Assembly: GCF_014643175.1 (NCBI RefSeq)
Contig: NZ_BMJH01000001.1
Coordinates: forward strand, 806,001-870,000
Direction of reading: 5' to 3'
DNA from: Hoyosella rhizosphaerae
Lineage (GTDB): Bacteria; Actinomycetota; Actinomycetes; Mycobacteriales; Mycobacteriaceae
DNA length: 64,000 bases
Shown: one piece after another, positions 7,287 to 17,552 of the stretch
Position numbering within the stretch: position 1 is the first letter of the stretch
Layout: every line of letters begins with the position of its first letter
Notes under the pieces: model-generated
What the model saw: only the letters and a program-made list of their open reading frames with translations
What the model was told of the DNA's origin: nothing
Databases searched by the model: none
Position numbers and translations under genes: made by a program

Positions 7287-8189
7287 TTACCACAGGCTCT
7301 CCAGGTCACGGACGGTTTCCTGCAAAGCTTCTCGGATCGCCATAATCGCAGGGTGACGGGCACTTGCGGTGCGCTGGGAGGTGAAGATGGTACGGCTTGG
7401 GCTGGTTTCGAGCGTCACCAGTCGCGCCTCCGGTTGCCTTCCCACCCAGACCAGATCTGGCAAGAAGGCGACCGCGTTTCCGGACTCGACGAGCCGAACG
7501 TGAGCTTGCAGGTCCGCAGTTTCAAATCGCACGTCAGGGTCAAAACCGGCTTGTCGGCACGCTTGCTCTGCCCAGTGCCGTGATGCGGCCCCGTGCGGTT
7601 CCATCACCCACGGTGCCTCCCGTGCGCTGGCAAGATCTTCGATGTCGAGGAAACCGCGCGGGGGTAGCGCGAGTCGAATTTCGTCACTAGTGAGGTGTTG
7701 CCGGTCTAAGCCTTGATAGTGCTGCGCAGCGTGGCCTGGGTACTGTTCCGCGACGACGAGGTCAAAGTCGCGGGCCCAGGTCTCGTGGAGGGCTGTTTCT
7801 GGTTCGTGCTGCACCATTTCAATGCGCACGTTGGGGTGTCGATGCCGCATTAGGTTTAACGATTGTGGAATGAGTGCGAGGGCTGCGGTTTGGAAAACAG
7901 CGAGTCGGACCGTTCCGGAGACGGTGGTGTCGGATGCGGCGAGGGCGGATTCTGCGCGTTCTAAACAATCGAGAAGTTCGCCGGTGTGCTCGACGAGCAA
8001 CAGTGCCTGGGGTGTGAGTTGTAGCCGTCGGCCTGATTTGCGCAGGAGTTCGGCGCCAGCCTCCCGTTCCAGGATTGCTAGTTGTTGCGACACCGATGAG
8101 GGGCTGTAGTTCAAGGCTGCGGCGACTTCCGCGATGGTGCCGCGAATGCTGAGTTCGCGCAAAAGGTTTAGGCGGTGGACGTCGAGCAT
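7287..8189 (-). CDS. LysR-family transcriptional regulator
   Basis: 300 residues from the ATG at 8189 (MLDVHRLNLLREL), with GGATGGG upstream; a TTG at 8201 is less likely. The N-terminal winged helix-turn-helix is clear (GTIAEVAAALNYSPSSVSQQ), followed by a linker helix and an effector-binding domain of two alpha/beta lobes. It stands divergent to putA and upstream of putP on the same strand, so proline-responsive control of both is likely, though untested. Confidence 0.9.
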   Translation of the reverse strand: MLDVHRLNLLRELSIRGTIAEVAAALNYSPSSVSQQLAILEREAGAELLRKSGRRLQLTPQALLLVEHTGELLDCLERAESALAASDTTVSGTVRLAVFQTAALALIPQSLNLMRHRHPNVRIEMVQHEPETALHETWARDFDLVVAEQYPGHAAQHYQGLDRQHLTSDEIRLALPPRGFLDIEDLASAREAPWVMEPHGAASRHWAEQACRQAGFDPDVRFETADLQAHVRLVESGNAVAFLPDLVWVGRQPEARLVTLETSPSRTIFTSQRTASARHPAIMAIREALQETVRDLESLW

Positions 8190-8208
8190 CAACCCATCCA
8201 ATCATTCG

Positions 8209-8237
8209 GTTTTCCTTCACGATACTCTTCGGAAAAC
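8209..8237. promoter_or_regulatory. Inverted repeat in the LysR-putA divergent promoter
   Basis: GTTTTCC (8209-8215) and GGAAAAC (8231-8237) form a perfect 7-bp dyad with a 15-nt spacer between the divergent starts at 8189 and 8307. It is a candidate LysR operator by position only. Confidence 0.35.
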
Positions 8238-8306
8238 ATCGCTATACCTGATGGGTGGTTGCGGCGCATACTCAAAGGAACCGAGCAACCAGAGGAGGTC
8301 GTAGCC

Positions 8307-11300
8307 GTGAGCACCCCCACAGGCCATGCACCGCACAATTCCCGCGAAGCCAACGTCACGCCGCAGGAACTCACCGACGAGGCAGTTCAACTGGTACGCC
8401 GCTGGTTGACCGAAGGCTCAAAATTCCCCGTCGACAAATCCGCTGAGCAACTCGCCGGAGTACTCAACGACCCCAACGGTCTCGACTTCACTGTCGGCTT
8501 CGTTGACGGCGTCGTACGCCCCGAAGATCTGCGCGTCGCCGCCACCAACCTCAAAGCGCTGGCACCCATCACGCCCGGCTTCCTCCCGTGGTACATGAAG
8601 TTCGCAATCCAACTCGGCGGCATTCTTGCCGTCGTCGCACCGCACCTCGTGATCCCCATAGCCCGAAAAGTGCTGCGCCACATGGTGGGGCACCTCATCA
8701 TCGACGCCACCGACGCCAAGCTGGGCAAATCGATCACCAAAATCAAAACCGACGGAGTTCGGCTCAACATCAACCTCCTGGGCGAGGCCATTCTCGGCGA
8801 AAGGGAGGCCGCCCGCCGCCTCGATGGCACTCGCAAACTGCTCACCCGCGATGACGTTGACTACGTCTCCATCAAAGTCTCGTCAACGATGGCGCCGCAC
8901 AACCACTGGGCATTCGATGACGCCGTCACCCACGTCGTAGAAAACCTGTCCCCGCTCTATCGCATCGCCGCGAATGCCACACCGCGACACAAGTTCATCA
9001 ACCTCGACATGGAGGAATACAAAGACCTCGACCTCACCATCGCGGTCTTCACCACACTGCTTGACCAACCAGAGTTTGAGAAACTGGAAGCTGGAATCGT
9101 GCTCCAGGCATACCTGCCTGATGCTCTCGCGGCGATGATGCACCTCCAGGAGTGGGCAGCAGCACGCGTCGCCCGCGGCGGAGCCCCCATCAAGGTTCGT
9201 GTCGTCAAAGGCGCAAACCTACCCATGGAACATGCCGATGCGGACCTCCATGGCTGGCCCCTGGCAACCTGGCACACCAAACAAGAATCAGACACGTCCT
9301 ACAAGGCAGTGCTCGACTACGCTCTGCGCCCCGAGCACACCCGCAACGTCCGCATTGGCGTGGCCGGACACAACCTGTTCGATATCGCACTCGCCTGGCT
9401 GCTCGCCACCAAACGTGACGTCACCGATGGCGTCGAATTCGAAATGCTCCTCGGCATGGCCACCGGACAGGCCGAAGCAGTGCGTCGAGATGTTGGTTCG
9501 TTGCTGCTCTACACCCCAGTTGTGCACCCACGTGAGTTTGATGTCGCGATCGCGTACCTCATCCGTCGGCTTGAGGAAGGCGCATCCAAGGAAAACTTCA
9601 TGTCCGCGGTGTTTGAACTCGACAAGAACGAAGCACTCTTTGAACGCGAGAAGCAACGCTTCCTGGCGTCGGTCCACGCACTCACCGATGAAGTTCCCAC
9701 CCCGCACCGCATCCAGGACAGGAACCGGCCACAACCCCCCGCCCCACGTACAGGGTTCATCAACACTCCCGATACGGACCCGGACCTACCCGGCAACCGC
9801 GCCTGGGGTCGGGCCATCGCTGAGCGCATGGAACACTCGACGCTCGGCAGCGAGTTAGTCGAAGAATCCTGGGTCGCCACCGAAGACGAGCTCGACACCA
9901 TAATGTCGCGCGGCGCGAAAGCGGCGGCGAGTTGGCAAGCACTCACCGCAGATGAACGTGCGGAAATCCTCCACCGCGCAGGTGACGTCCTCGAACGCAA
10001 ACGCGCAGACCTTCTCGAAGTAATGGGCTCTGAATGTGGGAAAACCCTCGACCAGGGCGACCCTGAAGTGTCAGAAGCCATCGACTTCGCGCACTACTAC
10101 GCAGAACTGGGCCGCGAACTCCAGAAAACCAACGGAGCGGAGTTCGTACCCTCTGCTCTGACGGTAGTTACTCCCCCGTGGAATTTCCCCGTGGCCATTC
10201 CCGCAGGTTCAACCCTGTCCGCACTTGCCTCCGGCTCCGCAGTTGTCATCAAACCCGCTGGACCAGCGGCGCGATCAGGCGCAGTGATGGTGGAAGCATT
10301 GTGGGAAGCTGGCGTACCGCGCGACGTCTTGCAGTTTGTCCAACTCGGCGAGCGCGAATTGGGCACCCAGTTCATTTCACATCATCTCGTTGAGCGGCTC
10401 ATCCTCACCGGCGCTTACGAAACAGCGGAACTGTTTCGCTCATTCCGGCCGGACTTGCCCTTGCTCGCTGAAACATCAGGCAAGAACGCCGTCATCGTCA
10501 CGCCCTCCGCTGACCTTGACCTAGCAGCAAAAGACGTCGCATACTCTGCTTTCGGCCACGCAGGACAGAAGTGCTCGGCGGCCTCACTTGTCATCCTCGT
10601 CGGTTCAGTCTCGACGTCCAAGCGGTTCCGCAATCAACTCATCGATGCCGTGCAGTCCCTACACGTCGGATATCCGTGGGATCAGCGCACCCAAATGGGC
10701 CCGATCATTGAACCCGCCTCGGGGAAACTACTGCGCGGCCTCACAACGCTTGGCGACGGCGAAAACTGGGTGCTCAAGCCCACCCAGCTCGACAGTTCCG
10801 GAAAACTGTGGAGCCCCGGCGTGCGAGACAACGTAGAACGCGGCTCTGAGTACCACACCACCGAATACTTCGGACCCATCCTCGGCATCATGACGGCAGG
10901 GACGCTCGACGAAGCCGTCGACATGGTCAACGAGATCGACTACGGGCTCACAACCGGCCTCCACTCACTGAATCCCGACGAAATCAAGTACTGGATGAAC
11001 CACATCGAGGCCGGAAACCTGTACGTCAACCGCGGCATTACAGGCGCTATCGTGCAACGGCAACCCTTCGGCGGGTGGAAAAAATCCGCCATCGGAGCGG
11101 GCACCAAAGCAGGCGGACCGAATTACCTCGTCGGTCTCGGTACATGGAGAGATGCACCCGTCGAACCAACGCTTGCCCCAATCACCGGCCCTCCGTCTGC
11201 CATCGCGACAGCTCTAGAAGGCGTACTGAGCACAGCGGACATGGAATGGCTGCGCGCTGCGATCGCCACTGACGCTTCCGTGTGGAATTCCGAGTTCGGC

Positions 11301-11780
11301 ATCGCGTACGACCGCACCGGTCTACACGCCGAGCGAAACCTACTCCGCTACCGGACCGTCCCCGTTGTTGTCCGGTACGAGGAAGGCACATCCGGACACG
11401 GTGTCGCCGAACTCGCTCGGGTTGTGGCCGCCGGACTGCGCTGTGGCGCACACATTAGCGTGAGCAGTGCCGCTGCTCTTCCGCCAGAAATGCTCGATAT
11501 CATTGGCGCACAAGGAGTCTCCATTAACACCGAGACCACGCAACAATGGCATCAGCACGTCGCCCACCTCGCTGCGGGTGCAGCTCGGATTCGCCTCATC
11601 GGTGGGGACTACACCGCGACAGCTAAGGCCGCGAACGGCAAACCCGATATCGCGATCTACGCGTCACCTGTGGTGTCCGCTGGCCGCGTTGAAATGTTGC
11701 CTTTCCTTCGTGAACAGGCAGTTTCCATCACGGCTCACCGGTACGGCACACCCAACCACTTGACCGACAACATCATCTAA
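8307..11780 (+). CDS. putA: Bifunctional proline dehydrogenase / glutamate-semialdehyde dehydrogenase
   Basis: 1157 residues from the GTG at 8307, fixed by AGAGGAGG at 8291-8298. The N-terminal part is the FAD-dependent proline dehydrogenase barrel (DVDYVSIKVSS, VLQAYLPDA, RVVKGAN). The second half is an aldehyde dehydrogenase with PPWNFPVAIPAG, catalytic Glu in LAETSGKNAV and nucleophile Cys in GHAGQKCSAASL. Proline is oxidised to P5C and then, by channelling, to glutamate, feeding electrons to quinone. There is no N-terminal RHH DNA-binding domain, so regulation must come from another protein, probably the neighbouring LysR. Stand-alone PRODH and P5CDH are common in many actinobacteria, so a fused PutA is worth noting. 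Confidence 0.95.
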   Translation: MSTPTGHAPHNSREANVTPQELTDEAVQLVRRWLTEGSKFPVDKSAEQLAGVLNDPNGLDFTVGFVDGVVRPEDLRVAATNLKALAPITPGFLPWYMKFAIQLGGILAVVAPHLVIPIARKVLRHMVGHLIIDATDAKLGKSITKIKTDGVRLNINLLGEAILGEREAARRLDGTRKLLTRDDVDYVSIKVSSTMAPHNHWAFDDAVTHVVENLSPLYRIAANATPRHKFINLDMEEYKDLDLTIAVFTTLLDQPEFEKLEAGIVLQAYLPDALAAMMHLQEWAAARVARGGAPIKVRVVKGANLPMEHADADLHGWPLATWHTKQESDTSYKAVLDYALRPEHTRNVRIGVAGHNLFDIALAWLLATKRDVTDGVEFEMLLGMATGQAEAVRRDVGSLLLYTPVVHPREFDVAIAYLIRRLEEGASKENFMSAVFELDKNEALFEREKQRFLASVHALTDEVPTPHRIQDRNRPQPPAPRTGFINTPDTDPDLPGNRAWGRAIAERMEHSTLGSELVEESWVATEDELDTIMSRGAKAAASWQALTADERAEILHRAGDVLERKRADLLEVMGSECGKTLDQGDPEVSEAIDFAHYYAELGRELQKTNGAEFVPSALTVVTPPWNFPVAIPAGSTLSALASGSAVVIKPAGPAARSGAVMVEALWEAGVPRDVLQFVQLGERELGTQFISHHLVERLILTGAYETAELFRSFRPDLPLLAETSGKNAVIVTPSADLDLAAKDVAYSAFGHAGQKCSAASLVILVGSVSTSKRFRNQLIDAVQSLHVGYPWDQRTQMGPIIEPASGKLLRGLTTLGDGENWVLKPTQLDSSGKLWSPGVRDNVERGSEYHTTEYFGPILGIMTAGTLDEAVDMVNEIDYGLTTGLHSLNPDEIKYWMNHIEAGNLYVNRGITGAIVQRQPFGGWKKSAIGAGTKAGGPNYLVGLGTWRDAPVEPTLAPITGPPSAIATALEGVLSTADMEWLRAAIATDASVWNSEFGIAYDRTGLHAERNLLRYRTVPVVVRYEEGTSGHGVAELARVVAAGLRCGAHISVSSAAALPPEMLDIIGAQGVSINTETTQQWHQHVAHLAAGAARIRLIGGDYTATAKAANGKPDIAIYASPVVSAGRVEMLPFLREQAVSITAHRYGTPNHLTDNII

Positions 11781-11785
11781 AAAAC

Positions 11786-11827
11786 CTGGGTGGGGTGCCT
11801 AGTAATAAAACTTGGCACCCCACCCAG
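11786..11827. terminator. Bidirectional terminator between putA and the 663-aa protein gene
   Basis: A perfect 14-bp stem: CTGGGTGGGGTGCC (11786-11799) and GGCACCCCACCCAG (11814-11827) around a 14-nt loop. On the minus strand it is followed by GTTTTTT, on the plus strand by a weaker CTCCACCTTT. It separates two convergent genes and can stop transcription from both. Confidence 0.88.
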
Positions 11828-11839
11828 CTCCACCTTTAA

Positions 11840-13831
11840 CTACTCGGGGATGCGGTCCGCAGCCCAGCTCCCGTACGCAAGTGCGCGCACCGTCTCAATT
11901 TCAGACTCCGGCACTGGCGTATCGCTCAGCGAACCCGCCGCGTCATCGTGGAAAATGTAGAGCCGCGACACCATCTCGGCGAACGGCAACGATGCCTCAC
12001 CGAAACGCTCACCGTGCCCCTGCGTCGACACCAGAACTCCGTTGCCCCAGTTCTGCCGACTGTCATTGTTCGGGTTGTAAAAATACACACGCATCTCGCC
12101 TTCTTGATCAAGGCCAACTCGAATGAGTGTGATGGCATGCCACCCGACAAACACTGCCGAACTATCCGTCACCGCTAATCCCGCCGGTTGCGGATGAATC
12201 AGAGGCTGGTTTCCGTTGTACAGCGGGTGATAACTCGCGTAGAACTCCCGGACAAATCCTTCGTAGTCACGCAGCTTTCCTGTCGCCACATCTACCGCGA
12301 TGTAGAACTCGCGGCCCACCCACCAACCGTGAAACTCAGGGTTGATCCACCGATGGGGGTCTTCTCCACGGTCGGAACACAGCCGTCCCATTTCGCCATA
12401 AATCCGGTCCAAGTGCGGCACGAGGATCGTCGACACGGCATCCGTATCGAGCATTGACGATCGTGCCAACGCGTCTGGCAGTTCGGCGGACGAAATCGGG
12501 GTGCCTTCAAAATGCATGAGCACCGTATCTTGCCGAGTTGCGTGGAAAAGCACATGCAATAGATACGCGGGATCGCTGTATGACCACATCGAAATCGCCC
12601 GAGCTGACTGGCACGTCGGGTTGTTTCCTTGCCCGATCCCCAAAGGCAGCCCGAGGGCGAGGATAGTCCCAGCGAGCAAGTGCACCCGTGGTGGAAGCGC
12701 TGCACCAAAAGTGGCCGTCAGTGCCGCACTTGCCTTCTCGGAAGGCTGCAACGCAATTTGCCGCCACAGCCCAGGTGCGATGGGCGGCGAATACAGAATC
12801 CCGCGCTCCAACAAGTTTACCAGCCCGTACAGCGCCTGCGCTGTCCCCGGATGAATCGCCTCGACGATCAGGTGGTGCACCAAATCCGAGTAACACTGCA
12901 ATGCGTCCTGGCCCGTGCTGCTCAGTCCTAGTGCAGTAGGCAATAGCGTTACCTGACCAGTGTCGAGAATCCACCGCACAAACAATGCGTGGTAATCCGA
13001 CACAAGCCCAGTATCGAGCATCGCTCGCGCAAGCCCTGAAGCTTCTTGCTGCAACCCAGGGAAATCAATCGTTTCCAGCCGAGATTGGTACTCGGTAAGC
13101 CCAGGATCGTCACGACACGTTTGTGTAGGGCCAAACAGTGAACTGATGAGCCGGTCTGCTCCCAGCCGCGCGTCACCGAGGCTTCCCGCCCCATTCGCCA
13201 TCGTGATCGCGATTTCAGTGATCATCGCTTTTACGTGGCCGACTTGGATGGGGCGTTGCGCGAGAATCCGCCAGATCTCGTCGATCAAACTCTGCAGGAT
13301 GTCGTCAAAACCGATGTGATTCAGCAAAAACTGAAACAACTCCGACACTGCACCGTCGAGTGGCCCGGCCTTTACGCGCGCCGCTTCATCCATCATTCCG
13401 AAGACGCGCTCAAGGTTCATCGCCAACACTTGTGTCAAGAAGTGGCGCGCTAGGTCCCCTGACAACTCGGTGCTGTGCATCCGCCCGGTGGCAACGGCGA
13501 GCATGCGCAATTCGCTCAGGCATTCAATGGTGATGGTCTGCGCTGAACCACCGCGCATCGTTGCCGTGACCAACCCTGGAATTAAGGAAGCCGGGGCGGC
13601 CCAATCTGTACCGGCGAATACTCCGGCCCGATCAAGCCGGGGCGCCATCTCATATAACACTTCGATGCCACCTGATTTGGTGAGCAGCCGACGCGCGACA
13701 TCAATGACCGGTGCCTGATGGTTGGACTTAGCGAACGCACTTGCCTGCTCAAGACGTGACACGGCGTGCTCAAGTTTTTCCGTGAGCTTGCCGACGCCGG
13801 GGTCAGTAACAACGGACTCCGCAGAGTTCAC
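11840..13831 (-). CDS. Putative papain-like cysteine hydrolase with long helical N-terminus
   Basis: 663 residues from a GTG at 13831 behind GAGAGGTGG. I recognise no named family. Residues 1-390 look all-helical. From about 395 the sequence GQGNNPTCQSARAISMWS places Gln401 six residues before Cys407, the papain spacing of oxyanion Gln and nucleophile. His565 in FVGWHAITLIRVG resembles the papain xHAVxxVG strand, and YNPNNDSRQNWGNG (Asn586) could supply the Asn. A thiol peptidase, amidase or transglutaminase activity is inference. The gene lies 20 bp behind the ATP-grasp gene, so the two almost certainly form an operon. There is no signal peptide. Confidence 0.6.
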   Translation of the reverse strand: MNSAESVVTDPGVGKLTEKLEHAVSRLEQASAFAKSNHQAPVIDVARRLLTKSGGIEVLYEMAPRLDRAGVFAGTDWAAPASLIPGLVTATMRGGSAQTITIECLSELRMLAVATGRMHSTELSGDLARHFLTQVLAMNLERVFGMMDEAARVKAGPLDGAVSELFQFLLNHIGFDDILQSLIDEIWRILAQRPIQVGHVKAMITEIAITMANGAGSLGDARLGADRLISSLFGPTQTCRDDPGLTEYQSRLETIDFPGLQQEASGLARAMLDTGLVSDYHALFVRWILDTGQVTLLPTALGLSSTGQDALQCYSDLVHHLIVEAIHPGTAQALYGLVNLLERGILYSPPIAPGLWRQIALQPSEKASAALTATFGAALPPRVHLLAGTILALGLPLGIGQGNNPTCQSARAISMWSYSDPAYLLHVLFHATRQDTVLMHFEGTPISSAELPDALARSSMLDTDAVSTILVPHLDRIYGEMGRLCSDRGEDPHRWINPEFHGWWVGREFYIAVDVATGKLRDYEGFVREFYASYHPLYNGNQPLIHPQPAGLAVTDSSAVFVGWHAITLIRVGLDQEGEMRVYFYNPNNDSRQNWGNGVLVSTQGHGERFGEASLPFAEMVSRLYIFHDDAAGSLSDTPVPESEIETVRALAYGSWAADRIPE

Positions 13832-13851
13832 GTCTCAGTCCACCTCTCGTG

Positions 13852-15075
13852 TCATACGTAAAAGTCAAGCTCTTCTTGCCTGGTAAGTAGTTCCTTCATG
13901 CGATCAGGATCGTCGCCGAAGAAGTACACCAGACCCCAGTGGGTGCCAAACGCCGAACGCTTCGTCACCTGATTAGCCACAGGTGGTGTGAGTTCGTGGA
14001 AATCAAAGTACTCGTCGTCTTCAGTCTCCGAGGGAATCTCGAGTTCGCTCACGACACGGCGCCGTGGGTAGACACCGAAGCAACCAGCGTGGCCTTTAGC
14101 ATCGACCACTGGTGTGGGGAAGAAAGCTTCGATTTCTTCTTCTGTTGTCTTCGGGTCGAACATCAACACCAACGCCTGGTACGCGTTGAAACCGTATGAA
14201 CGCTCAAGAAGTTCAAAAACCTTGAAGCCGGGCGGCCGGTAGGCGACCTCGCCGAAATACATTTTGCCGTCGCTGGTGACAAAGTATTCGGGGTGAATGA
14301 ACCCGAAATCAATATCGAATGTTTCGATGAGTTTTTCGATCTCTTCGGTAATCCGCGGGCGCCACTTCTCCAACTCGGGGCTGGCAGGCACAAACACTGA
14401 ATATCCGAGGCGGACGTACTCGGAAATATTGAGGAATCGAATCTTGCGATCCTGCACCCACGCCTCGACTGCGAATTCCCACCCGTCAAGGTGGCTTTCG
14501 AGCAGCGCTGGGAATTCATCGTCATTGATATTCGCGACGTCTTCCACAGTCGAAATGACTCGGTGACCTAAGCAGCCGGCCTGATCGAAGGCCTTGAGGT
14601 GAATAGGATCGTTCGGGTCACCATCGAGTTTCAGCAAGGTTTGGTTTACGCGCTTGAGGAATCGGACCACATCATCACGGTCGTGTGCTTCCTCGAAGAT
14701 GCCCACGCGGATTCCGCCGAGTTGAGCGCGGCGCTTCATCAACGCCTTGTCGCGGAACAACATTGCCTGACCGTGCAGCCTGGGGTTACCGTGCAACACG
14801 GCATTGATGGCCCCAGCCCATTCCACGGTTTCTTCGAATAGTGGAATTGCGGCGTCAACACCCATGTCTTTGAGTGTTTGAGCGATTTCTAGCGAACGAT
14901 CATTTAAGCGTTCAAAGTTCCAGCACACAAACGGAATATTGTTTTCTTTGGCGTAGTCTTCAGCCCATTCAGGTGCGACTACAACGTACCGTCGGTCGAA
15001 ACGCTCTACAGCGTCTATCGCACCGAGGCTCCAACCAAGAAGTGCAACATAGCCCTTTTCGGGATCTTTCTCCAT
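13852..15075 (-). CDS. ATP-grasp domain protein (carboxylate-amine ligase type)
   Basis: 407 residues from the ATG at 15075, set by GGAGGAG 9 nt upstream. The N-terminal 110 residues form a pre-ATP-grasp alpha/beta domain (VALLGWSLGAID). Then come the ATP-binding strands (LLKLDGDP, HLKAFDQAGCLGHRV), a central WEFAVEAWV segment and the metal-ligand region HPEYFVTSDGKMYFGEVAYR, matching the E...E-x-N/Y-x-R pattern of ATP-grasp ligases. Such enzymes join a carboxylate to an amine or thiol through an acyl phosphate. The substrate is unknown. It is the first gene of an operon with the putative cysteine hydrolase, suggesting that one makes and the other breaks or trims an amide. Confidence 0.8.
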   Translation of the reverse strand: MEKDPEKGYVALLGWSLGAIDAVERFDRRYVVVAPEWAEDYAKENNIPFVCWNFERLNDRSLEIAQTLKDMGVDAAIPLFEETVEWAGAINAVLHGNPRLHGQAMLFRDKALMKRRAQLGGIRVGIFEEAHDRDDVVRFLKRVNQTLLKLDGDPNDPIHLKAFDQAGCLGHRVISTVEDVANINDDEFPALLESHLDGWEFAVEAWVQDRKIRFLNISEYVRLGYSVFVPASPELEKWRPRITEEIEKLIETFDIDFGFIHPEYFVTSDGKMYFGEVAYRPPGFKVFELLERSYGFNAYQALVLMFDPKTTEEEIEAFFPTPVVDAKGHAGCFGVYPRRRVVSELEIPSETEDDEYFDFHELTPPVANQVTKRSAFGTHWGLVYFFGDDPDRMKELLTRQEELDFYV

Positions 15076-15461
15076 GCTCTTCAACTCCTCCAATGTAGGT
15101 TTCGAGCGGTGATCGATCTATCGGCCACAGTTCCCTAGCCTGCCACCGTTGACGACTAACCGCCACCATCGCTCCGGCCGTGGACGTGGCTACGGACTTC
15201 GTGCAGAGAGCGCATCACCCAACCAACATTGACCGAACTTCGCAACCTAAATTCAACAACGCAAACACCGTGTATCACCAGGCGTTATGCAGTCATAATT
15301 CCGCTGCTTTTCCGTTCAGAACACACATCTGCGTCACGAACGCGAATGCGCGGTAATGGGGCGCCTCTTGTTTCCCGAACGCTACGGCGTGTCGCCCATG
15401 CCTACTCACAACGGGGGGTTCAGCCGGGGTGAATGTCAGCCGCATCGGGCAGGATGTGCAC
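15076..15461. other. Intergenic region between the ATP-grasp operon and recQ
   Basis: 386 bp, divergent promoters for the ATP-grasp operon and recQ. I see no RNA gene, no convincing small coding region and no strong dyad. The region is somewhat less GC-rich around 15230-15310, consistent with promoters. Confidence 0.4.
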
Positions 15462-17552
15462 ATGCTTCAAAACGATCTCCGGGCCCGCGCTGACGAACTG
15501 CTACGCAAACTCGCTGGCGAACACGCTCAGCTACGCGACGATCAATGGTTGGCGATCGAGGCGCTGGTCGCCCACAACCGCCGCGCCCTCGTAGTGCAAC
15601 GCACCGGGTGGGGAAAATCGGCGGTGTACTTCATATCGGCTAAATTGCTTCGCGCATCGGGGCGAGGTCCGACAGTAATCGTGTCGCCTCTCTTGGCTTT
15701 GATGCGAAACCAGGTAGCCGCAGCCCAGCGAGCAGACGTCGTTGCAGCGACCATCAACTCAGGCAATATCACCGAGTGGTCAGCGATTCACGAACGTATT
15801 GCTGGAGGCGAGATCGATGTACTCCTCGTCAGCCCTGAGCGGCTCAACAACCCCGATTTTCGTGACCAGGTTCTACCCCACCTGGCACGCGACGCCGGGC
15901 TGGTCGTCGTCGACGAAGCACATTGCGTATCTGACTGGGGCCACGATTTTCGCCCCGACTACCGCCGCATACGCACGCTCCTCACCGAACTCGAACCCAA
16001 TACCCCCGTGCTTGCCACCACCGCAACTGCGAATGACCGAGTAGTCACAGACGTCGCAGCTCAACTTGGTGTCGGTGGTGACGACGAAACCCTCATTCTT
16101 CGGGGAGGACTCGATCGCGAGTCACTGCATCTGAGCGTTCTTAACGTCGGTGGTGGTGCCCGACGTGCAGCGTGGGTAGCGCAACACCTCAACGACCTGC
16201 CTGGCAGCGGAATTGTGTACACCCTCACTGTCTCCGCGGCGGAGGACCTGGCTGCGTTGCTCACCGACCAGGGTCATAGCGTGGCGGCGTACACCGGCAA
16301 AACCGACACAGCTGAACGCGAGCAACTCGAATCGGACCTTTTAAACAACGAGGTCAAGGCACTGATTGCGACGTCCGCACTCGGGATGGGCTTCGACAAA
16401 CCTGACCTTGGTTTTGTGTTGCACGTAGGCGCACCGTCGTCACCCATTTCGTATTACCAGCACATTGGCCGCGCTGGACGGTCCGCCCAAAGAGCAGAAG
16501 TGATTTTGCTACCAGCGGCCGAGGATCGCGACATTTGGCGCTACTTCGCTTCGGTAGCATTCCCACCAGAGGAATCTGTCAAAAGCGTCTTGGCAGCGCT
16601 ACGAACCGACCGTGCATTGTCCACGCCCGCGTTGGAACCGTTGGTCGACCTGGGTCGCAGTCGGCTAGAAATGGTGCTCAAAGTTCTTGACGTGGATGGC
16701 GCCGTCAAACGTGTCAAAGGCGGGTGGATCAGCACAGGTGCCGAATGGACCTACGACTACGAACGCTACGGACGGCTCAGTGAGGCACGGGATTCGGAAC
16801 AACGCGCCATGCTCGACTACGCCGAACTGAAAACCTGTCGGATGGTGTTTCTTCGTCGGCAACTTGACGATCCTTTGCTCGGTACGAATCCCGCGCCGTG
16901 TGGTCGCTGCGACAACTGTGGGGGCGCACGATTTAGCGCAACGATTTCCGACAGCACCACAGCAGCCACCGATGCGAGGTTGTCCCGCCCCGGCGTCACC
17001 CTCGCTCCGCGCAAACAGTGGCCAACAGGGATGCGCAGTCTTGGGGTGGCGCTGAGCGGGAAAATCCACACTGGTGCCGAACAAGGCCGGGCTATTGGCC
17101 GACTGACAGACCTTGGTTGGGGGCAGCGCCTGCGAACGCTTCTCCAACAGCCCGACGGGCCCGTAGACGAGGACGTCGTGTCGGCCGCGGTGGAGGTCCT
17201 CAAGGCGTGGAACTGGGGACAACGCCCAAGTGCCGTCCTAGCGATGCCACATCACACCCACCCAATACTGACCGAGACACTTGCTCAACGGCTCGCTCAA
17301 GTAGGGAAACTGGACTTTCTTGGCGTCCTACCGCGTCGTGCGAACCACCCAGTCGCCAACGCGCACAACTCCGCCTACCGCGTGGCCGCGCTACATGAGA
17401 GCTGGGAACCACCGCACGTGGCTGAAACTGGTCCGATCCTGTTAGTCGACGCGACCACAGATACTGGGTGGACGTTCACCGTCGCCGCTCATTCACTCCG
17501 GCAAGCGGGTGCGCCCGCTGTACTGCCGTTCGCCATAGCTAGCGTCAGTTAA
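15462..17552 (+). CDS. recQ: RecQ-family ATP-dependent DNA helicase with phosphoribosyltransferase-like tail
   Basis: 696 residues from the ATG at 15462; a GTG at 15429 would add 11. Visible SF2 motifs: RTGWGKSAVYF (Walker A), VVDEAHCVSDWGHDFRPDY (DEAH box and aromatic-rich loop), TTATAND, ALGMGFDKPD and HIGRAGR. A four-Cys zinc site (CRMVFLRRQ ... CGRCDNC) marks RecQ. There is no clear HRDC domain. The last 150 residues are different and end in PILLVDATTDTGWTFTVAA, which resembles the PRPP loop of phosphoribosyltransferases, a tail seen in actinobacterial RecQ-like helicases. It unwinds DNA in repair. The stop overlaps that of the convergent lipoprotein gene. Confidence 0.9.
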   Translation: MLQNDLRARADELLRKLAGEHAQLRDDQWLAIEALVAHNRRALVVQRTGWGKSAVYFISAKLLRASGRGPTVIVSPLLALMRNQVAAAQRADVVAATINSGNITEWSAIHERIAGGEIDVLLVSPERLNNPDFRDQVLPHLARDAGLVVVDEAHCVSDWGHDFRPDYRRIRTLLTELEPNTPVLATTATANDRVVTDVAAQLGVGGDDETLILRGGLDRESLHLSVLNVGGGARRAAWVAQHLNDLPGSGIVYTLTVSAAEDLAALLTDQGHSVAAYTGKTDTAEREQLESDLLNNEVKALIATSALGMGFDKPDLGFVLHVGAPSSPISYYQHIGRAGRSAQRAEVILLPAAEDRDIWRYFASVAFPPEESVKSVLAALRTDRALSTPALEPLVDLGRSRLEMVLKVLDVDGAVKRVKGGWISTGAEWTYDYERYGRLSEARDSEQRAMLDYAELKTCRMVFLRRQLDDPLLGTNPAPCGRCDNCGGARFSATISDSTTAATDARLSRPGVTLAPRKQWPTGMRSLGVALSGKIHTGAEQGRAIGRLTDLGWGQRLRTLLQQPDGPVDEDVVSAAVEVLKAWNWGQRPSAVLAMPHHTHPILTETLAQRLAQVGKLDFLGVLPRRANHPVANAHNSAYRVAALHESWEPPHVAETGPILLVDATTDTGWTFTVAAHSLRQAGAPAVLPFAIASVS

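Follow-up and report, generated by a model that had tools for sequence, protein, structure and literature searches.

An ATP-grasp ligase and a predicted papain-like enzyme form a conserved gene pair of ectoine-producing bacteria

Glutathionylspermidine synthetase/amidase unites an ATP-grasp ligase with a papain-like amidase, and the amidoligase operons of Iyer et al. 2009 are said to pair amide-making with amide-cutting enzymes in the genome. Here a further pair is described in a stretch of 64,000 nucleotides of Hoyosella rhizosphaerae (contig NZ_BMJH01000001.1, positions 806,001 to 870,000; hereafter the window), where the open reading frame (ORF) list places the genes for an ATP-grasp ligase of 407 aa and a partner of 663 aa on the minus strand with a 20-bp gap (13832-13851), just as originally described. 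The pair would belong with the operons that couple amide-making and amide-cutting enzymes and is a real, conserved and uncharacterised enzyme pair; among the genomes examined it is confined almost wholly to producers of ectoine, a well-studied salt protectant with industrial use. It is not named in the literature searched, which included few subscription papers, and may be mentioned in Iyer et al. 2009. RimK/RimB and the RloC/RloA/RloB loci likewise encode an ATP-grasp enzyme with a peptidase, and the Rlo enzymes are tied to osmotic stress (PMC12239564). The RimB and Rlo peptidases are retropepsin-like aspartic enzymes, whereas the partner has a papain-like Cys-His-Asn arrangement, which sets the pair outside the RimK/RimB group.

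The suspected co-occurrence of the two genes in other genomes is borne out by a neighbourhood survey. Of 100 partner loci, the window included, 91 also contain the ligase gene, whole or as a fragment covering at least 40%; many of the loci come from related species, so that these counts are not independent. The count leaves out L121, L123 and L135 as repeats, and L117, where the choice of ORFs missed the partner gene; the genome of the latter (G435) has both genes adjacent. The two genes share a strand in 83 of the 100 loci, with the ligase first in 81 of these. Two of the nine loci that lack the ligase (L023, L056) are cut by contig ends, three (L017, L064, L080; genomes G400, G412, G416) belong to genomes with a ligase elsewhere, and four (L109, L111, L112, L115) hold extra partner paralogues. 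The ligase was present in all 16 whole carrier genomes tested, including three without it in the fetched locus. Across 83 loci the distance matrices of ligase and partner correlate at r = 0.90, a value to which shared host descent contributes, as compared with 0.22 for the best of 1000 permutations. Since the two proteins are jointly inherited, they presumably act on one compound. At least three partner copies occur in the sampled genomes G489, G557 and G593 (at most three candidates per genome were scored in the 398 Pseudomonadota), and a second ligase subfamily at 70-74% identity forms pairs of its own, whose gene order is reversed in L148 and L149 and whose genes lie on opposite strands in L110, L114 and L140.

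The partner represents an enzyme family without a Pfam model that is invariant at its predicted papain-like site. Searches of Pfam, NCBIfam and PHROGs at E <= 1, and of the PDB by sequence or with a profile, gave no match for the 663-aa protein, which is thus as unassignable as the original prediction had found it; 53 family members scanned singly against Pfam gave a best E of 0.011, none of the matches being papain-like. An AlphaFold2 model built from 53 aligned sequences (mean predicted local distance difference test score, pLDDT, 86.3; predicted template modelling score, pTM, 0.82) is helical over residues 1-392. According to DSSP, Cys407 opens a helix (407-419), His565 lies within a strand (561-574) and Asn586 comes right behind another (580-585), which is the order of helix, strand and strand seen in papain. 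Gln401 precedes Cys407 by six residues, the same spacing as that from Gln19 to Cys25 in papain. The residue numbers given originally are correct, and Gln401, Cys407, His565 and Asn586, among them the cysteine on whose conservation the papain-like assignment hinged, are unchanged in 100 of 100 aligned partner rows, including that of the window.

Both the Gln-(5 residues)-Cys spacing and the order of Cys-helix, His-strand and Asn are shared with papain-like cysteine enzymes of clan CA such as cathepsin L and staphopain. The partner differs from these in its large helical N-terminal region and in the lack of a Pfam or PDB sequence match; nor was a signal peptide seen by eye. Foldseek returned no significant match for the partner model: 15 of the best 50 PDB rows (8 entries) are papain-like by title or family, all at E >= 0.49, and 3 of the best 7 viral structural rows are papain-like by title, none significant alone. 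The papain-like site proposed originally is hence upheld in the order of its elements, by topology only, and not by significant structural matches. Judged from the model, a papain-like fold of the C-terminal domain is likely. Glutathionylspermidine synthetase/amidase is absent from the best 50 PDB rows of both the partner and the ligase model. A link to C39-like/DUF3335 proteins was considered and dropped, as hhalign against one C39-like protein gave no match. A gene fusing GNAT and C39-like DUF3335 domains (L017:2841-4106) lies about 4 kb from a partner gene whose locus lacks the ligase.

The 407-aa protein has a predicted ATP-grasp fold and is tentatively of the L-amino-acid ligase type. Its model, with a mean pLDDT of only 74.5, matches 332 PDB rows at E <= 0.001, and L-amino acid ligases occupy ranks 1-3, with 3vot (3vot_B) at E 2.6e-18 and 4wd3 at 8.4e-18; BacD/YwfE also ranks high. 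Phosphoribosylglycinamide synthetase 4dim, PurK-type enzymes and biotin carboxylases trail by a few orders of magnitude. Sequence profiles place 4dim, named as a phosphoribosylglycinamide synthetase, at E 0.00097, followed by 3vot (0.003) and 4wd3 (0.0098), and no curated Pfam or NCBIfam family scores above its cut-off. The L-amino acid ligases BL00235, RizA and BacD/YwfE share the fold over the whole ligase as well as the conserved acidic and basic residues typical of ATP-grasp enzymes, at only 12-18% identity; the present ligase is accompanied by a predicted papain-like partner. All 20 residues checked, preselected among those invariant in a 32-row alignment, are invariant in 88 of 88 rows and include K110, K149, E263, E276 and R280, which by analogy are putative metal- or ATP-binding residues. 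Across three named phyla, identity to the window's proteins amounts to 76-92% for the ligase versus 51-73% for the partner.

Ectoine synthase (PF06339) scores above its cut-off in 59 of 398 sampled Pseudomonadota and in all 11 carriers of the pair among them (Fisher test, p = 3e-10; 2e-9 without the centre genome); the carriers are related rather than independent, so that these p-values overstate the association. Further carriers agree (26/27 and 48/50), bringing the total to 85 of 88 carrier genomes, between whose draws species may repeat and one of whose positives, the metagenome-assembled genome (MAG) G985, has a match of only 50 residues. The three carriers without ectoine synthase (G418, G970 and G972; loci L014, L026 and L028) are all MAGs by title. 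Seven of the 11 pseudomonadotal carriers were placed in a tree, where they fall with Marinobacter (4), Halomonadaceae (2) and Alcanivorax (1). All seven actinomycetotal carriers tested possess ectoine synthase, and the window's own genome contains ectC preceded, by eye, by ectA- and ectB-like ORFs. In a Desulfobacteraceae MAG, a 27-residue C-terminal remnant of ectC (L015:6558-6638) precedes the ligase gene by about 80 bp, and an intact ectC is present elsewhere in the same MAG. A connection with ectoine breakdown (doe/eut) was rejected, since only 4 of 27 carriers have an ectoine hydrolase (TIGR02993) above the cut-off, with two more not far below.

A gene of the HDAC-like family PF00850 is a frequent, non-required component and likely the third member of the system. 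It adjoins the pair in 6 of 84 loci (L005-L088), namely L012, L014, L018, L019, L045 and L048, and also in L118; its side and orientation relative to the pair vary, and at least four lineages are represented. Four such neighbours were scanned and are clear PF00850 members (E 7e-85 to 7e-94). Among the 398 Pseudomonadota, with at most five candidates scored per genome, the subfamily was found at E <= 1e-100 in nine genomes, all of them among the 11 carriers, and in 0 of the 387 others (p = 3e-15 without the centre genome; 2e-8 within ectoine producers). The gene occurs at 66% identity or more in 14 of 28 carriers and at 49% in one more. It shares PF00850 with HDAC-like amidohydrolases such as HDAH, HDAC6 and the dimethoate and propanil hydrolases, HDAC6 and HDAH being its PDB relatives; the subfamily differs in being confined to carriers of the pair among the 398 Pseudomonadota. 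Both the third gene and the association with ectoine synthase go beyond what the original prediction had observed.

Taken together, these observations suggest, with confidence about evenly balanced, that the pair acts in the cytosol of ectoine-producing, salt-adapted bacteria as a module for the synthesis and turnover of an amide-linked, peptide-like compound, and we infer a role in salt adaptation. Judging by its fold and residues, the ATP-grasp enzyme would activate a carboxylate with ATP and join it to an amine, as in L-amino-acid ligases. The Cys-His-Asn site of the partner, to go by its conservation and topology, would then hydrolyse an amide or transfer the acyl group to another amine, and the genetically linked HDAC-like amidohydrolase of several lineages may remove a further acyl group. 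The make-and-cut amide chemistry proposed originally is thus plausible. An intermediate of the ectoine pathway is a candidate substrate, as the building block. That the pair, together with the HDAC-like enzyme where present, forms an unrecognised branch of ectoine metabolism yielding a peptide-type salt protectant or reserve is quite unlikely. On that reading the ligase would link another amino acid to diaminobutyrate or N-gamma-acetyl-diaminobutyrate, the papain-like enzyme would free the coupled intermediate and the HDAC-like enzyme would strip its acetyl group, the product being a new peptide-type salt protectant or reserve used when salinity changes.

Several observations weigh against the proposed module, in addition to the kinship of the carriers. 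No papain-like structural match is significant by itself and the C39-like profile comparison came out empty, while the precedence of 4dim by sequence and the closeness of other ATP-grasp enzymes by fold make the type of the ligase tentative. The HDAC-like gene is missing at E <= 1e-100 from carriers G435 and G814, and the subfamily was not found in the window's genome (best 38%) or in three Hoyosellaceae (best 35-38% across these), so that the deacylation step would be dispensable or replaced. Apart from the ectC remnant in L015, no ectoine gene adjoins the pair in the subset of loci scanned for one. Finally, the link to ectoine could mean halophily in general, ectoine synthase being the sole salt marker scored.

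This last point leads to the strongest rival, to which we give a chance a little short of even, namely that ectoine synthase merely marks salt adaptation and that the pair serves another need, such as a thiol or a wall or envelope peptide, metabolically unlinked to ectoine. Many named carriers are marine or soda-lake organisms, which fits this explanation, as do the lack of an intact ect gene near the pair and the scarcity of ectoine hydrolase among carriers. It has to contend with the fact that only three MAGs among the 88 carrier genomes are without ectoine synthase, and with the ectC remnant directly upstream of a ligase gene; the ligase-plus-hydrolase part of the proposed module could hold alongside it. 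A natural-product role is highly unlikely: here the papain-like domain would be an acyltransferase completing a product begun by the ligase, on the model of butirosin, for which BtrJ and BtrH are said to act as ligase and then acyltransferase. The papain-like fold does include acetyltransferases and deamidases besides peptidases (PMC10318531), and yet no recurrent carrier protein, large synthase or exporter stands beside the pair among the neighbours listed.

Protein modification of the RimK kind, in which the ligase would attach a short tail or an amino acid to some protein, to be taken off again by the papain-like enzyme, appears unlikely. RimK, itself an ATP-grasp enzyme, attaches glutamates to a ribosomal protein and is bound and regulated by the aspartic peptidase RimB (PMC12239564), and the unusual conservation of the ligase relative to the partner would be expected if a conserved protein must also be recognised. 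Yet the ligase model is nearest to small-molecule L-amino acid ligases with no RimK in its best 50 PDB rows, RimB is not papain-like, and no recurrent target-protein gene appears among the 132 neighbours from 28 loci, as far as the best 25 of 126 neighbour families tell.

Within those same 25 families, HDAC-like and alpha-amylase genes are commonest with 3 members each, followed by ten families with 2; PF00128 matches 3 of the 132 sampled neighbours. Other shared neighbours were set aside, as widely shared clusters besides HDAC are mostly limited to relatives of Marinobacter or Halomonas and no family exceeds 3/132. Downstream of two extra partner copies lie genes for a GCS2-like ligase and an AstE-like amidohydrolase (L109:9347-11868, where the AstE match falls just under the cut-off; L111:9320-11841, by eye). 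These are families that make or cut amides, which fits amide chemistry. A metallo-beta-lactamase-fold gene occurs near both of these gene sets, and a 636-aa protein whose C-terminal half carries a ketoacyl synthase III domain is encoded near an extra partner copy (L109:3265-5175; G593, G557). Genes that by eye encode glycogen or trehalose enzymes stand beside the pair in three unrelated genomes (L085:3057-7846, L014:10591-12390, L140:8-5939).

The partner is rare in the genomes sampled, being present in 4 of 396 Actinomycetota (the window's genome included), in 11 of 398 Pseudomonadota (the centre genome included) and in 1 of 148 Thermodesulfobacteriota, the phylum of G419, where the one carrier is the centre genome itself, too small a number to test. 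Among genome contigs, at least 589 partner relatives were found; the best 80, which were retained, come mainly from Marinobacter, Halomonas and its relatives, Alcanivorax, Rhodobacteraceae, Desulfobulbaceae, Hoyosella, Lolliginicoccus and a Sumerlaeota MAG. In a quick tree, for which the program warns of long branches, the actinobacterial G050 groups with Oceanimonas (support 99) inside the Halomonas-Marinobacter part (100), and Hoyosella and the window group with Thiomicrorhabdus, Desulfobulbaceae, Desulfobacteraceae, Halieaceae and others (96). These placements make transfer between phyla likely, and partial spread by horizontal transfer is the best reading. A phage or plasmid origin was discarded, as there is no phage match and no relative on a viral contig, the one plasmid-listed record being a 1.8-Mb Halomonas replicon; so was a defence origin, the PADLOC match being at chance level (E 0.043).

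The features of the pair are collected in Table 1. The ligase gene starts at ATG 15075, with GGAGGAG just 5' of it; an alternative longer start at TTG 15093 overlaps this motif. The hairpin behind the partner gene folds at -37.8 kcal/mol as compared with a shuffled mean of -17.7 (z = -6.9, 200 shuffles) and is followed by GTTTTTT; a terminator pattern scan did not report it, perhaps owing to its internal mismatch and loop size. The strong terminator claimed originally is therefore real and perhaps not exclusive to the pair, as it lies between convergent genes, the plus-strand neighbour ending at 11780, and may serve both. Nor is there a long private upstream region: the 353 bp upstream of the ligase gene are shared with a divergent plus-strand ORF with a listed start at 15429. 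No promoter was seen when 11700-15500 was scanned for a strict sigma-70 consensus, a result that counts for little in either direction. By eye, the convergent plus-strand gene (8175-11780, 1201 aa) encodes a PutA-type fusion of proline dehydrogenase and aldehyde dehydrogenase and the divergent one (15429-17552) a RecQ-like helicase; a RecQ-like gene likewise diverges from the pair in Lolliginicoccus (L009:4277-6568) and does not adjoin the pair in two Hoyosella loci.

Table 1. Features of the gene pair in the window, and HDAC-like genes beside the pair in other loci (locus:positions).
Feature	Position	Strand	Basis
ATP-grasp ligase, 407 aa, probably L-amino-acid ligase type	13852..15075	-	ORF, start signal, fold, profile matches
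663-aa two-part protein, helical N-terminal region and predicted papain-like C-terminal domain	11840..13831	-	ORF, AlphaFold2 model
Helical N-terminal region, residues 1-392	12656..13831	-	DSSP of model: helices, first strand not before residue 438
Predicted papain-like domain, about residues 393-630, borders approximate	11942..12655	-	Order of secondary structure in model, non-significant structural matches
Gln401 codon, candidate oxyanion-hole residue	12629..12631	-	Invariant in 100/100 rows; role by analogy with papain
Cys407 codon, candidate nucleophile	12611..12613	-	Invariant in 100/100 rows; first residue of helix 407-419
His565 codon, candidate general base	12137..12139	-	Invariant in 100/100 rows; inside strand 561-574
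Asn586 codon, candidate orienting residue	12074..12076	-	Invariant in 100/100 rows; immediately past strand 580-585
Intrinsic terminator hairpin with T tail, between convergent genes	11786..11827	-	Folding energy against shuffles, sequence
Shine-Dalgarno-like GGAGGAG of the ligase gene	15085..15091	-	Sequence
HDAC-like gene	L012:3414-4547, L014:5024-6151, L018:10100-11197, L019:10025-11122	either	Beside the pair
HDAC-like gene	L045:5615-6175, L048:9954-11051, L118:6591-7709	either	Beside the pair

That this enzyme family and a dipeptide-type ligase occur together in at least three named phyla points to uncharted salt-adaptation chemistry. The ligase is highly conserved, and its substrates are to be sought among few candidates. 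The pair may thus be an unrecognised part of how bacteria cope with salt.

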